From positions 1 through 25,096 of IMG/VR virus record IMGVR_UViG_3300040770_000053: DNA of 25,096 nucleotides; one strand, 5' to 3'. Position 1 is the stretch's first letter. Every line of letters begins with the position of its first letter. A program made the translations under genes and the position numbers. Under the pieces are notes generated by a model. It saw only the letters and a list, made by a program, of their open reading frames with translations, was not told where the DNA came from and made no database searches. This DNA comes from a virus. This document shows positions 6,073-17,364 of the stretch, piece by piece.

Positions 6073-7472
6073 TTGATTTAGAAGAAATAGAATTTGACGC
6101 TGAACACTTCAATGAAATTTATCATGAAATAGATGCAGCTTTTAATAACAAGGATATTAGCTACATATTCCCTTACGGCGGTTCGTCTAGTGCTAAAACT
6201 CATTCGGTGTGCCAAAAACTATTGATATACACAATGGAGGGTCCTTTTAATAATTCAATTGTTTTTAAAAGAGTTTCTTCGCATATTGATAAAACTATTT
6301 TCGCTACATTCAAAAAGATTATTAATATTTGGGGTTTATCTGAATACTTCAAAATTCAAAAACATCACATCGAATTCAAACAAACAGGGAGTTTTATTAG
6401 TTTCTCTGGATTAGATGATGCGGATAAAGTAAAAGGATTGGAAGGTTACAAAAAGATTTTTATTGATGAATTAGATCAAGTTACTTTTGCCGATTATCAA
6501 CAATTAGAAACAAGGTTAAGAGGTGAAGAAGGGCAACAAGTTATCGGTGCATTTAACCCAGTATCTGAATTTTCATATATCAAAACTGAAATATTTGATA
6601 AAGAACAATGGATTGATATACCATCTAAAATAAATCTAAAGCAGATAAATAAAGATGGTGACATGATTATACTTAGGACCAACTACACCGAAAATATTTG
6701 GGTATCTGGTGATGGCAAAGGTGGTGGGTTCATTGATAAGAAAATGCTTAAGAAGTTCCAGAAATTCAAAGAAAGAGATATAAATCATTACAATATTTAT
6801 GCACTTGGACTTTGGGGTCACTTACGAAAAGGTGGCGAGTTCTTGAAACAATTCACTAATGAGCATATAGGGAATTATCCTTACAACCCATCGTTACCGC
6901 TGCATATTGTATTTGATGAAAATGTACTGCCTTATTTAACTTGTAACGTTTTCCAACTTGAAAACGGATTACTACGACAGATTGACGAGATAATGCTGAA
7001 AGATCCTTTGAATACATTAAAAGATACTTGCGAGGAATTTTTAAAGAGATACGGATCAAATATGAATGGATTGTTTATTTATGGTGACGCTACATCAAAG
7101 AAAAGAGATACTAAATTGCAGAAGGGTCAAAACTTTTACATGTTGATTAAAGGATATTTAGCTAAAATGAAACCTAACTTTAGGGTTCCGAAGTCTAACC
7201 CTAGCGTAATCATGTCAAAGAATTTCACTAATGATTTATTAGCTGGTGATATTAGTGGCTTGTCAATTGGCATTGATTCAAGATGTAGAAATTCAATCAA
7301 TGATTATCAATATTGTACTGAAGATGCTGAAGGAAAAGTAAATAAATCTGTCATAAAAGACAAAATAAGCGGTCAAAGTTGGCAGGAATTTGGGCATGCG
7401 TCCGACTGTTTGCGATATATTTTAACCGCAATGTTTATAAATGAGTATAAAAACTTCATGAAAGGGAAATAA
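6069..7472 (+). CDS. terL: Terminase large subunit
   Basis: A 467-residue packaging motor with ATPase and nuclease halves. ATPase: Walker A-type GGSSSAKT (residues 37-44), which lacks the usual second glycine before the lysine but is seen in Terminase_3-like proteins; Walker B KKIFIDELD with D133/E134; and GAFNP (160-164) as the coupling motif. Nuclease (RNase H fold): D283 in HIVFDENV, D340 in FIYGDATS and D446 in FGHASDCLRY, a plausible metal-binding triad. The motor cuts concatemeric DNA and pumps it through the portal. The only sensible start is TTG at 6069, since an in-frame stop lies at 6057-6059; it overlaps the upstream TGA by 4 nt, implying coupled translation. Length and motifs indicate a complete enzyme. 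Confidence 0.93.
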   Translation: MIDLEEIEFDAEHFNEIYHEIDAAFNNKDISYIFPYGGSSSAKTHSVCQKLLIYTMEGPFNNSIVFKRVSSHIDKTIFATFKKIINIWGLSEYFKIQKHHIEFKQTGSFISFSGLDDADKVKGLEGYKKIFIDELDQVTFADYQQLETRLRGEEGQQVIGAFNPVSEFSYIKTEIFDKEQWIDIPSKINLKQINKDGDMIILRTNYTENIWVSGDGKGGGFIDKKMLKKFQKFKERDINHYNIYALGLWGHLRKGGEFLKQFTNEHIGNYPYNPSLPLHIVFDENVLPYLTCNVFQLENGLLRQIDEIMLKDPLNTLKDTCEEFLKRYGSNMNGLFIYGDATSKKRDTKLQKGQNFYMLIKGYLAKMKPNFRVPKSNPSVIMSKNFTNDLLAGDISGLSIGIDSRCRNSINDYQYCTEDAEGKVNKSVIKDKISGQSWQEFGHASDCLRYILTAMFINEYKNFMKGK

Positions 7473-10238: not shown

Positions 10239-10264
10239 TGTTAAAGGTTTTTTGTTTATATTTG
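10233..10264 (+). promoter_or_regulatory. Promoter TTG-N21-TATATTTG for the large tail genes
   Basis: TTG 10233-10235 (inside the preceding T-tract), 21-nt spacer, TATATTTG 10257-10264. The 19 nt from 10257 are identical to 4388-4406. Confidence 0.7.
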
Positions 10265-10300
10265 CTTAAATTAAACACGTGTGATGATTCACGATACTTT

Positions 10301-11458
10301 ATGGCACTAGCAACACCTATTTTAACAAACATAAACAGTAAAGAAAATATTTTCTTTGCTCAGTCTCCAATGCACTTCAATATACAAAACGAGCTTGGCA
10401 CGACTTCATTGCAGCGGGCAACTATTGAAGTGTATATTTGGAGGGGTTTCCAAACTGCGGATTTGCCAGCGTCCCCGAGTATAGTTTTCAACAACATCGC
10501 TAAGGTATCGCCAGACGATAACTATATTGCAATTGAATTGCACAACGAAATAAAATCGTTCATAACTTCTTCAAACCTCAACGTCAACAACCCGCAATGG
10601 GCTTACAATACGACTAGCACACCAACTACTGCGGGCGAAGGGGTTTATTTTCACATAGTTTACAAAGTTGATAATGAATCAACAAAACAATTAGGTACTT
10701 ACTTCGCTACAACCGGTTACCGCTATTCATTCGAGCAGCGGGGCGGTATGTACACCGGATACGATGATATTGAAACATTCAGAAAGTATGCCTTTGGAAT
10801 CAATTACGATAGATGTACAATCAATAGGACCACATCAAAAGAAACATCTTATAGTGGTACTGGTTCAAACGGAATGATTACGCAACAATCTATTAATCCG
10901 AGTTCAAGACTAAGACAAACAGGCGTACCATGTTTAGTGGCGTATGTTAATCGCTTAGGACTTTGGGACACATTCACTCCATTTGGTAAATTTGTTGAAT
11001 CAATTGACACTACTAGAGACGAATATACTTCAAGTTTTAGAAACCCTTTGATGATTAATAGCCAAATCCAGCATTTAAAACAAGCGGGAAGCCCAAAAGG
11101 AAACCGAAAATTTACTATTAACACCGGGTTACTTGATGAAAACAACAATTATCAAGTGCGTGAGATCATTCAGAGTAGTAAAATATACTTAATTGTGTTT
11201 GGCGATGATGTTTATCAGACGCAACAAAACGGAATTACAGTCGATAGTACAGTTGTAACAGTTGATAATACCAACATTACAGTTGATAACGATGTTGTTA
11301 CTGAAGCAAATTTAGGGTTTTATAGTAAATTTACTCAGATTCCAGTTAGTAATGCAGCCACTAATTTCTTAAAAAAGACAAGGCTAAACGATAAGAGTTC
11401 GATTAGTTATACTTTTGAATTTGAAGAAACAAATAATTTTATAAATGATATAATTTAA
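10301..11458 (+). CDS. Virion structural protein, 385 aa (tail-associated)
   Basis: No named family is recognised, but sequence and position are those of a tail structural protein of Bacteroidetes phages. ATG 10301 is chosen because the predicted promoter starts RNA near 10270; a TTG at 10238 lies in the terminator/promoter region. The protein is β-rich throughout (IFFAQSPMHFNIQNELGTTS; ATIEVYIWRGFQ; GVYFHIVYKV) with no signal peptide. Residues around 325-350 contain a short repeated TVD motif (ITVDSTVVTVDNTNITVDND), encoded by near-repeats of ACAGTTGATA. It is followed after 1 nt by the 741-aa protein. Distal tail or adhesin-like roles are possible. Confidence 0.7.
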   Translation: MALATPILTNINSKENIFFAQSPMHFNIQNELGTTSLQRATIEVYIWRGFQTADLPASPSIVFNNIAKVSPDDNYIAIELHNEIKSFITSSNLNVNNPQWAYNTTSTPTTAGEGVYFHIVYKVDNESTKQLGTYFATTGYRYSFEQRGGMYTGYDDIETFRKYAFGINYDRCTINRTTSKETSYSGTGSNGMITQQSINPSSRLRQTGVPCLVAYVNRLGLWDTFTPFGKFVESIDTTRDEYTSSFRNPLMINSQIQHLKQAGSPKGNRKFTINTGLLDENNNYQVREIIQSSKIYLIVFGDDVYQTQQNGITVDSTVVTVDNTNITVDNDVVTEANLGFYSKFTQIPVSNAATNFLKKTRLNDKSSISYTFEFEETNNFINDII

Positions 11459-15649: not shown

Positions 15650-15659
15650 TTTATATTTG
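15630..15659 (+). promoter_or_regulatory. Promoter TTG-N19-TATATTTG inside the end of the tape-measure gene
   Basis: TTG 15630-15632 and TATATTTG 15652-15659, spacer 19. It is a near copy of the promoter at 9879-9908 (22 of 24 identical across 15644-15667). The -33 part lies within tape-measure coding sequence. Confidence 0.75.
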
Positions 15660-15663
15660 TGGT

Positions 15664-15717
15664 TCGCTACATACAGAAAAAATAAAACGTCATCATTTGT
15701 AGCGAGTGGTGGCGTTT
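15664..15717 (+). promoter_or_regulatory. Structured leader with two interleaved helices (pseudoknot or switch)
   Basis: TCGCTAC (15664-15670) is perfectly complementary to GTAGCGA (15699-15705). AAACGTCATCA (15685-15695) pairs with TGGTGGCGTTT (15707-15717), 11 bp including three G-T pairs. The 3' arm of the first helix lies in the loop of the second, giving an A-B-A'-B' order. The predicted RNA begins at about 15664-15666, so the very 5' end takes part. The start codon of the next gene is 19 nt beyond. Confidence 0.5.
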
Positions 15718-15735
15718 ATTCTTAAATTATTTATT

Positions 15736-16050
15736 ATGAAAAATTTTGCATTGGTTTTATTGTCAATTGTTTTTGCGATTGCTAATTGTTTTTTGTTTGC
15801 TTACGTTATTTTGGACTTGGTTCATTTGTTTAAATTGGATTTTGTTCCAAATATGACCGTGTTACAAGTTGTTGGTTTTGCGGTTGCATGGAGTATATTA
15901 ACTCTCAAATCGGATAAGGATCCAAAAGATAAAAACAAAGGAAGCATTAAGGATTCAATTGAAAGGAATTATTACAATTTGTTTTTGAAGTTGTTTTGTG
16001 TATTAATGACATGGGGAACTAGTTATATAATTGTTATTATTTTCAAATAG
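15736..16050 (+). CDS. Small membrane protein with structured leader, 104 aa
   Basis: ATG 15736 is chosen; an in-frame GTG at 15706 lies inside the leader hairpin. Three hydrophobic segments are visible: residues 4-28 (FALVLLSIVFAIANCFLFAY), about 38-56 (MTVLQVVGFAVAWSILTL) and the C-terminal one (LFLKLFCVLMTWGTSYIIVI), with a charged loop KSDKDPKDKNKGSIKDSIER between the second and third. No family is recognised. It lies alone between the tape measure and the small-RNA-like array with its own promoter and leader, so it is not necessarily an assembly protein. A holin-like, superinfection-exclusion or other membrane function is possible. The leader suggests its synthesis is controlled. Confidence 0.65.
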   Translation: MKNFALVLLSIVFAIANCFLFAYVILDLVHLFKLDFVPNMTVLQVVGFAVAWSILTLKSDKDPKDKNKGSIKDSIERNYYNLFLKLFCVLMTWGTSYIIVIIFK

Positions 16051-16072
16051 TACATTATCCAAATAAAAAACG

Positions 16073-16080
16073 TATCTTTG
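16073..16080 (+). promoter_or_regulatory. -7 element (TATCTTTG) of small-RNA unit 1
   Basis: TATCTTTG matches TAnnTTTG. No TTG is seen at -33, making this the weakest of the three array promoters. Confidence 0.5.
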
Positions 16081-16085
16081 CTGCA

Positions 16086-16150
16086 TCTCATTCATAGTTT
16101 AGATTCTTTTTAATCATTAGACCCTACAAAATTTTTGTAGGGTTTTTTGT
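16086..16150 (+). ncRNA. Putative small RNA, unit 1 of a three-unit array (about 65 nt)
   Basis: The segment lies between the -7 element and a strong terminator, with no ATG. It contains GATT…AATC (16102-16105 with 16112-16115 as a small stem), TAGTTTA (shared with unit 2) and GACCC (16120-16124), the last being the start of the terminator stem. Exact ends are predicted, not measured. Confidence 0.5.
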
Positions 16151-16156
16151 TTTTAT
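16121..16156 (+). terminator. Terminator of unit 1, fused to promoter of unit 2
   Basis: CCCTACAA (16122-16129) pairs with TTGTAGGG (16135-16142), loop AATTT, then TTTTTTGTTTTTAT. The TTG at 16147-16149 is the -33 element of the next unit. Confidence 0.8.
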
Positions 16157-16178
16157 AAAATAAAAAGACTTATATTTG
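16147..16178 (+). promoter_or_regulatory. Promoter of small-RNA unit 2 (TTG-N21-TATATTTG)
   Basis: TTG 16147-16149, 21-nt spacer, TATATTTG 16171-16178. The -33 lies in the T-tract of the previous terminator. Confidence 0.7.
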
Positions 16179-16183
16179 TTCTC

Positions 16184-16320
16184 AGAGAGTCACTAACTAA
16201 AAACAAAGAAATCATGAAGTAGTTTAACATCATTTAGGATAGTATCCTTGACCCGACGCAAAAGCGTTTCATAAAATATAACCAAACCCACTATAAAAAT
16301 ATAGTGGGTTTTTTGTTTTT
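16184..16320 (+). ncRNA. Putative structured small RNA, unit 2 (about 135 nt)
   Basis: Three stems can be drawn: AGGAT-AGT-ATCCT (16236-16248), ACGC-AAAA-GCGT (16256-16267) and the terminator. GACCC lies at 16250-16254 between the first two. The only ATG begins a start-stop frame, ATG AAG TAG (16214-16222). ATGAAGTA…CATCA (16214-16232) recurs in unit 3. No protein-coding frame of useful size is present. Confidence 0.55.
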
Positions 16321-16322
16321 AT
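16284..16322 (+). terminator. Terminator of unit 2, fused to promoter of unit 3
   Basis: AAACCCACTATA (16284-16295) pairs perfectly with TATAGTGGGTTT (16300-16311), loop AAAA, followed by TTTGTTTTTAT. TTG 16313-16315 is the -33 element of the next promoter. Confidence 0.85.
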
Positions 16323-16344
16323 CCAAATTTTAATTGTATATTTG
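16313..16344 (+). promoter_or_regulatory. Promoter of small-RNA unit 3 (TTG-N21-TATATTTG)
   Basis: TTG 16313-16315, 21-nt spacer, TATATTTG 16337-16344, the same geometry as the promoters at 16147 and 10233. Confidence 0.7.
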
Positions 16345-16349
16345 CTACC

Positions 16350-16445
16350 AATAAATGTATGAAGTAATACATCACAGAAATGACCCAAATCTCAAATACC
16401 ATTTAAAAAGCTACGCAATTAATTTTGTGTAGCTTTTTTGTTTTA
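16350..16445 (+). ncRNA. Putative small RNA / leader, unit 3 (about 95 nt), upstream of the capsid operon
   Basis: It contains the hairpin ATGTAT-GAAGTA-ATACAT (16355-16372), GACCC at 16382-16386 and a terminator. A 25-codon frame runs from ATG 16355 to a TAG at 16430-16432 inside the terminator's 3' arm. A second frame reads ATG AAG TAA (16359-16367), matching the start-stop frame of unit 2. It could be a stand-alone RNA or an attenuating leader of the protease gene, whose ATG is 13 nt after the T-tract. Confidence 0.5.
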
Positions 16446-16446
16446 T
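16404..16446 (+). terminator. Terminator-like hairpin directly before the prohead protease
   Basis: AAAAAGCTACGCAA (16405-16418) pairs with TTTTGTGTAGCTTTTT (3' arm ending about 16438), including one G-T pair, then TTTTTTGTTTTAT. It ends only a few bases before ATG 16453, and no promoter is seen between. Confidence 0.8.
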
Positions 16447-16452
16447 ACTATT

Positions 16453-17364
16453 ATGAAAAAATACGAATTAAAATATACAGTTGGTGAAGATGGCGTTTTT
16501 GCAATGTCAACAGTAACAAGTCCCGCAGTACTTTCTACGCTTGTAATGTTTTCAAATGAAACAGAACTTTTGCAGTTTTCAGACGATGAAAAGAAAATTA
16601 TCTATTCAGTTGCAATGCGTCCAAATATGCTTATTCCTAGAAAAAATATAAATGGTGAACCAGCTGAGGTATTTTATTCTGAAGAAACTGTAAAGGACTT
16701 ACAACAAAACTTTTTCAAAATGAATTATCATAACGGCGGTACTGTAAATCATGGCGGTGTATTAGTCAAAGATATGTATTTCTTCGAAAGTTGGATAGTT
16801 GAGGACCCGACAAAAGATAAAGCAACTTCACTAGGATTAGACGTAAAAAAAGGTGACTGGGTTCTGGGTCAAAAAATAGATAATGCCGAAGTATGGGAAA
16901 AAGTAAAAAACAAAGAATTATTAGGTTTTTCAATTGAAGCCTTTTTAAATCCAATATTAACCAACGATAACACAATAGAAATGACAAAGGAAGAAATTGA
17001 CGCAAGGATTAAAGAAGTGATCCTTATGACAGCTGAAGAAGATGCTGCAAAGAAAAAAGAAGAAGAAGAAGCGGCTGCAAAGTTAGCGATGGCAGAAGGT
17101 GACCCGATGCCACCAGCAGAAGAACCGAAAGCAGACTTGCAAAAACAAGTTGACGACTTAACAGCTGAAAATATTTCTCTTAAAGCTAGCATTGCAGAAA
17201 TGGAAGGGAAAGCAATCGAAATGGCTAGCGAGGTTGCTGCATCTAAAAAGGTTGCAATCGAAATGGGTGAAGAAATGGCAAAAGGAATTAAGCCAAAAGC
17301 ACCAAGTAAGAATTATGAAGAAATGAGCGCATTAGAGCGTTTCAGAGATTCAAAAAACAAATAG
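16453..17364 (+). CDS. XkdF-like prohead protease with C-terminal scaffold-like region
   Basis: A 303-residue protein. ATG 16453 (MKKYELKYTV) is the start; an upstream in-frame TTG lies in the terminator T-tract. Residues 1-170 match the XkdF-like phage serine protease pattern: IIYSVAMRPNMLIPRKNING (49-68), a putative catalytic histidine H100 in VNHGG, ESWIVEDPTKDKA (112-124), LGQKIDNAEVWEKVKNKE and a putative catalytic serine S160 in GFSIEAF. Residues about 180-303 are a charged, Ala/Glu-rich coiled coil (AAKKKEEEEAAAKLAMAEGD; DLQKQVDDLTAENISLKASI), as expected of a fused scaffolding domain. It would guide procapsid assembly and then cleave scaffold and possibly capsid protein. A small gene and the major capsid protein follow, the normal order. 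Confidence 0.85.
   Translation: MKKYELKYTVGEDGVFAMSTVTSPAVLSTLVMFSNETELLQFSDDEKKIIYSVAMRPNMLIPRKNINGEPAEVFYSEETVKDLQQNFFKMNYHNGGTVNHGGVLVKDMYFFESWIVEDPTKDKATSLGLDVKKGDWVLGQKIDNAEVWEKVKNKELLGFSIEAFLNPILTNDNTIEMTKEEIDARIKEVILMTAEEDAAKKKEEEEAAAKLAMAEGDPMPPAEEPKADLQKQVDDLTAENISLKASIAEMEGKAIEMASEVAASKKVAIEMGEEMAKGIKPKAPSKNYEEMSALERFRDSKNK

Follow-up and report, generated by a model that had tools for sequence, protein, structure and literature searches.

Background

Late gene control in phage lambda works through the promoter pR', a short terminated leader RNA, the terminator tR' and the Q protein, and the late structural genes need read-through. In HK022 the put leader RNA acts on RNA polymerase in cis and no dedicated phage protein is involved. 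A different use of a small RNA structure is found in T4, where the gp43 translational operator consists of a 5-bp stem and an 8-nt loop just upstream of the start codon. The nut and rrn antitermination elements have been summarised elsewhere (PMC10250234). Promoters of the Bacteroidota primary sigma factor have a published consensus of TAnnTTTG at -7 and TTTG near -33 (PMC7366714, PMC6847099). Literature searches, in which the coverage of subscription papers was thin, turned up no publication on antitermination leaders from Bacteroidota phages and, as far as they show, late-gene timing in these phages is undescribed.

Here we describe a 402-nt intergenic gap in a phage genome and a hairpin that it shares with dozens of other phages. 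The window, by which we mean the whole stretch of DNA analysed, is an entire IMG/VR virus record of 25,096 bases. A sequence-only reading had proposed that the gap holds three small-RNA-like transcription units in tandem. We interpret the third unit as, on balance, probably an attenuated leader that acts in cis on the head operon, in which a hairpin would govern read-through into the late genes in the manner of nut or put.

Results and discussion

The intergenic gap and its surroundings

The window contains the gene set of a tailed phage (terminase, tail genes, a head-protease-like gene at 16453, portal and endolysin). Its promoters are of the Bacteroidota style (TAnnTTTG), and the source is an uncultured phage of the Bacteroidota type. 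Sigma-70 promoters are the wrong type and matched at chance level only. A tRNA/tmRNA search of the window returned none.

The gap begins after the gene ending at 16050. The three units of TAnnTTTG followed by a hairpin and T-tract that had been read in 16051-16452 are indeed there (Table 1), and a TTG lies upstream in units 2 and 3 only, 24 nt from TATATTTG. Dinucleotide shuffles of the gap contain a mean of 0.03 such terminators, and two ordered promoter-terminator units were found in none of 1000. The RNA sizes predicted earlier are roughly correct. The promoter and terminator segments of the units are alike, both as 28- and 25-nt families and in local alignments; the likeness may reflect duplication or merely common promoter and terminator words. 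The promoter word of units 1 and 3 recurs in another phage, L317, at 6945-6970 and 10809-10837 (minus strand) as TTATCCAAAT...TATATTTG/TACATTTG, which suggests a common upstream promoter element.

Two other sites in the window are of note. At 15652-15735 the leader downstream of TATATTTG contains two helices that interleave (CGCTACA/TGTAGCG and AAACGTCATCA/TGGTGGCGTTT; fold -17.3 kcal/mol), directly ahead of gene 15736. These helices could be a pair resembling a terminator and antiterminator, or a pseudoknot. At 1285-1319 TATATTTG directly abuts a terminator-like hairpin (1295-1319, -11.6 kcal/mol) and the next gene is at 1354, a possible minimal promoter-terminator leader.

Table 1. Coordinates of the features discussed, in window positions
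Feature	Position	Strand	Details
Second leader-hairpin copy	10257..10300	+	TATATTTG 10257-10264; hairpin 10278-10293, loop TGATGATT; no terminator; R1 match 10272-10305, 26.8 bits (in training set)
Unit 1	16073..16154	+	TATCTTTG 16073-16080; terminator 16115-16149 (-15.6 kcal/mol); no TTG at -33, no conserved hairpin
Unit 2	16171..16320	+	TATATTTG 16171-16178; TTG 24 nt upstream; body of ~105 nt; terminator 16284-16311 (-14.9 kcal/mol)
Unit 3, promoter -7 element	16337..16344	+	TATATTTG, sigma-ABfr type; TTG 24 nt upstream
Unit 3, conserved leader hairpin	16355..16372	+	Stem ATGTA/TACAT, loop TGAAGTAA; covariation; R1 match 16350-16383, 30.1 bits (in training set)
Unit 3, possible 8-codon leader ORF	16380..16406	+	MTQISNTI*; ATG 16380, TAA 16404-16406; predicted only
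Unit 3, terminator 3 and T-tract	16405..16446	+	Hairpin 16405-16438 (-16.9 kcal/mol), its end 14 nt ahead of the head gene ATG; equivalents in relatives
Head gene, head maturation protease-like	16453..17364	+	PHROG 3017 head maturation protease and others; downstream of the leader

Unit 3 contains a conserved RNA hairpin

Unit 3 (16337-16446) is the sole conserved unit of the three. For comparison, viral contigs supplied homologues of the head gene and of the major-capsid-like protein. About a dozen relatives have one promoter-hairpin-terminator unit upstream of the head gene and other relatives have none. The hairpin is unselected in the head-gene relatives because these were obtained by protein homology. 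Their loop is TGAAGATG or TGAAGTTG, and the terminator ends ~16 nt ahead of the start codon. The stems vary yet stay paired (AAACGTG/CACGTTT, CTGTA/TACAG and AATATG/CATATT, compared with ATGTA/TACAT in the window).

The same leader hairpin is common to dozens of other phages. A pattern scan (TTTG, 5-30 nt, GTGTGAAGWTGCAC), in which the two outer stem pairs were left unspecified, matched 109 stretches of viral sequence and, in the genomes of cellular organisms, at least 118. The full TAnnTTTG is present in 61 of the viral matches analysed, and in these the two outer pairs are formed in 59/61 and 57/61, against shuffle maxima of 44 and 38. No comparable outer-pair formation was seen in the 24 viral and 106 genome matches that lack the promoter. 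Across 42 distinct sequences 99% of the cells are paired, and covariation is 0.594 versus 0.14 in shuffles and at most 0.16 when the structure is slid. It is the outer pairs that carry the evidence, because the query fixed the inner pairs in the rows derived from the pattern. Judged by these counts, the leader hairpin is a real RNA structure. The compensatory changes in homologues that the earlier reading named as a test are present only for the hairpin of unit 3. A DNA operator in place of an RNA is disfavoured, as the loop is asymmetric and the outer pairs swap among A-U, U-A, G-C, C-G and G-U.

The leader is built of TAnnTTTG, a spacer of 5-22 nt (in most relatives), a 5-bp stem with a UGAAGWUG loop, a linker, a terminator and the start of a late gene. 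An AC dinucleotide directly follows the stem in most members. The linker is rich in AARRAC words (28/56 versus 6.7), a feature that is not general. In relatives TTG peaks 22-24 nt upstream of the leader promoter, and the promoter is thereby supported.

A covariance model, R1, was built and 81 matches were catalogued with it; its scores are not independent support because the training set holds the window and many of these sequences. Rfam 15 gave no match at the gathering score and no credible match below it. A search of two large structured-RNA surveys for Bacteroidetes motifs linked to phages found no passage on this hairpin (PMC8040213, PMC2864571), and an unnamed entry may be present in their supplements. 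Credible matches in the phage collection were restricted to two uncultured gut records. Among cultured relatives, the hairpin is missing from the whole records of phi46:1, P12024S and EMB2 and from the first 50 kb of BS-TP2. A host regulon was rejected because 197 other Bacteroidota genomes gave no match, in a search at E 0.003 whose filters were stricter and so lose weak matches.

A terminator separates the hairpin from the late genes

A hairpin with a T-tract, at -10 kcal/mol or lower and within 120 nt, follows 85% of the 59 promoter-bearing viral matches, compared with 1% of shuffles and 0/24 viral controls. Of the 81 catalogued matches 57 have a terminator, and TAnnTTTG is found in 55 of those 57. 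The distance from terminator to start codon in the catalogue clusters at 14-20 nt with a peak at 16-18 nt. Sampled downstream genes gave matches to head maturation protease, portal, tape measure, large terminase and anti-repressor. No separate promoter is evident between the hairpin and the gene, because TAnnTTTG occurs there at chance (4/51, expected 3.4). Where relatives of the same head gene have the hairpin, their terminator lies 12-18 nt from the ATG, and where they lack it, 46-57 nt; the P value of this contrast, 0.0003, is nominal since the sequences are related. The longer distance leaves room for a promoter.

An intrinsic terminator between a promoter and the first gene, with no other promoter, is the arrangement of an attenuator at the level of sequence; in the window there is one reservation, TAATTTTG. 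This fourth TAnnTTTG match (16420-16427) lies within terminator 3, 25 nt ahead of the head gene ATG, a spacing that resembles other promoters of the window. It may be a second promoter, for the head gene itself, in this phage only. A head-gene promoter in the terminator loop was rejected as a general arrangement on the count of 4/51.

Hairpins without a terminator and a possible role in translation

About eleven hairpins lack a terminator and lie 6-23 nt (mostly 6-13) ahead of start codons, sometimes with no promoter nearby. One is the second copy in the window, which stands directly ahead of ATG 10301, the start of the gene that opens the tail block. Homologues of this gene in L004, L007, L315, L151 and L113 have it as well, and others precede terminase (L077), tape-measure genes (L079, L150) and more. 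This class identifies the hairpin as a cis element of late mRNAs. It also suggests a translational role, since such positions near start codons would be superfluous for a pure antitermination site. At about 664-790 of L085, and in a near-copy in L128, the hairpin is 10 nt ahead of an ORF that reads like the start of a GIY-YIG nuclease, and a -17.8 kcal/mol terminator falls within the start of that ORF.

The hairpin might be a translational operator, on which a phage or host protein bound to UGAAGWUG would control initiation 6-16 nt downstream, directly where the gene has no terminator and, where a terminator follows, via a short leader ORF whose translation would affect it. The terminator-less hairpins ahead of real start codons fit this. 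In terminator-type leaders an ATG is found 6-16 nt after the hairpin (counted at 2-20 nt) in 28/56, versus 13.4 +/- 2.9 and a maximum of 24 in shuffles, and stops inside the terminator are also in excess (11, expected 4.3 +/- 1.9). Unit 3 itself had been described as free of a useful reading frame, which needs qualification because of its predicted 8-codon ORF, whose stop touches the terminator base. However, the leader ORF is confined to some lineages. Linkers of 14-22 nt and leaders of the L070 type leave little or no room for one or have none, the L105 ORF stops early, and the linker motif is retained in L164 (GGACGAAAGGACC) though the ATG is lost. Moreover, related leaders are non-independent observations. 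A universal leader peptide is unsupported, the ORF being absent from whole lineages. Control of translation is, in our estimate, a serious candidate but an unlikely one.

A leader in cis or small RNAs in trans

The units could instead encode discrete trans-acting small RNAs, which would serve as regulators or, by titrating a protein that binds the hairpin, as decoys. Each unit would give a discrete RNA of ~65-135 nt and, as the hairpin also stands ahead of other genes, a leader once released could compete with those copies for their factor. Against this, the position is tied to that of the late gene that follows, the hairpin alone is conserved while linkers and terminators vary freely, and units 1 and 2 have no hairpin. 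Beyond the hairpin only a short linker word is conserved, and the terminator-to-ORF distance is near-constant, which is not the pattern of a stand-alone small RNA. A cis leader is favoured over three trans-acting RNAs because the terminator abuts the late-gene start codon, because promoter-like elements are not enriched between hairpin and gene, and because the hairpin also precedes start codons where there is no terminator. We consider the trans-acting alternative improbable. The three promoter-terminator units of the original proposal stand, and the comparative evidence favours a cis-acting leader of the head operon over three small RNAs. Neither a packaging RNA nor a decoy against host defence gained any support here.

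Units 1 and 2

The array is rare: an extra promoter-terminator pair between the last long ORF and the leader was seen in 3 of 55 comparable leaders, and two successive extras in the window only. R1 gave no match on unit 1, and a weak hairpin match in unit 2 (16205-16236, 9.2 bits) is at chance level. Outside the terminators the bodies of both units fold no better than shuffled sequence. In the search for homologues, matches were limited to terminator and promoter words, and no relatives of gene 15736 were found. By this comparison, units 1 and 2 are without relatives that would justify calling them RNA genes. The simplest account of unit 1 is a weak promoter match together with the terminator of gene 15736-16050; its terminator is directly behind that gene, much as in L031. 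An ordinary operon boundary, made of terminators of the tail block and accessory gene, chance or weak promoters and leaky read-through to the head genes, is likely for unit 1 and may fit unit 2, given that the bodies of these units lack structure and homologues and that extra units are rare in relatives. It is very improbable as an account of the whole gap, as it leaves unexplained the joint conservation of promoter, covarying hairpin and terminator in unit 3.

Proposed mechanism

Sequence-level evidence covers the promoter motif, the covarying hairpin, the terminator, the spacing and the genomic position of the attenuated leader; a working terminator, regulated read-through and control by the hairpin are what we infer. 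Host RNA polymerase carrying the primary sigma factor of Bacteroidota would start ~5-7 nt past TATATTTG and transcribe a short 5' segment, the 5-bp hairpin with its UGAAGWUG-type loop and a linker of 30-45 nt. By default it would stop at the terminator ~14 nt ahead of the head gene start codon and leave an RNA of 75-110 nt. Recognition of the hairpin by a putative phage or host factor, or by the polymerase itself, would suppress termination and allow the head genes to be transcribed. The copy at the tail genes would have the same effect on transcription that enters the head genes from the tail genes. Units 1 and 2 would be extra barriers, the first being the terminator of the upstream gene and the second another promoter-terminator pair. 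With them in place, head expression driven from upstream would depend more on read-through.

The hairpin is taken as the recognition element because it stays constant while the linkers and terminators beside it vary freely. Its most likely action is to suppress termination, by analogy with nut, put and Q-dependent leaders. A BLASTP comparison of nine hairpin-positive phages, which a short divergent peptide could escape, found no common non-structural gene that is missing from the negatives; because no such specific gene emerged, no candidate factor is named.

The leader has the look of a switch, not catalogued before, that would turn on virion assembly. Its RNA signature is compact, can be searched for and stands where head, tail and packaging genes begin; it marks late operons in uncultured phage genomes and predicts a read-through switch. 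The hairpin model would let others seek the binding factor.

Comparison with known systems

The present hairpin resembles the lambdoid nut site (boxA/boxB/boxC, protein N) and the boxB-boxA leader of rrn operons in its GAAGA-containing purine-rich loop and its place early in phage operons, before terminators. It differs from nut in its 8-nt UGAAGWUG loop and nearly fixed inner stem (GUG/CAC), so that stem and loop are unlike those of lambda; it can also stand directly before a start codon, and an N-like protein was not found in the BLASTP comparison. A boxA-like GCTCT follows the hairpin, in the rrn order, in a lineage comprising L070, L072, L100, L114, L120, L165 and L168. It is found in 6/56 leaders, all of this one lineage, and is missing from the window leader. 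In L070, L114, L165 and L168 the boxA-like (A)TTGCTCTTA after the hairpin lies ahead of a PHROG 5824 gene.

The lambda Q system shares with the phage leader described here a late promoter and a short terminated leader RNA before the late genes. However, Q acts via a DNA site at the promoter, whereas the element conserved in our leaders is an RNA hairpin that covaries and the terminator is ~16 nt from the gene. Like HK022 put, the leader could act on polymerase in cis and need no dedicated phage protein, but put has two stems of unrelated sequence and the leader a single 5-bp hairpin. The T4 gp43 operator has the same stem and loop sizes and the same proximity to the start codon. Its loop sequence is different, and in our phages a terminator usually follows and many different late genes lie downstream. 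We tentatively suggest, as a possibility that goes further than the leader itself, that the UGAAGWUG hairpin belongs to an antitermination or attenuation system specific to Bacteroidota phages, one that is shared by many otherwise different phages, switches on head and tail genes, and uses a factor or contact unlike N, Q, put, LoaP and UpxY.
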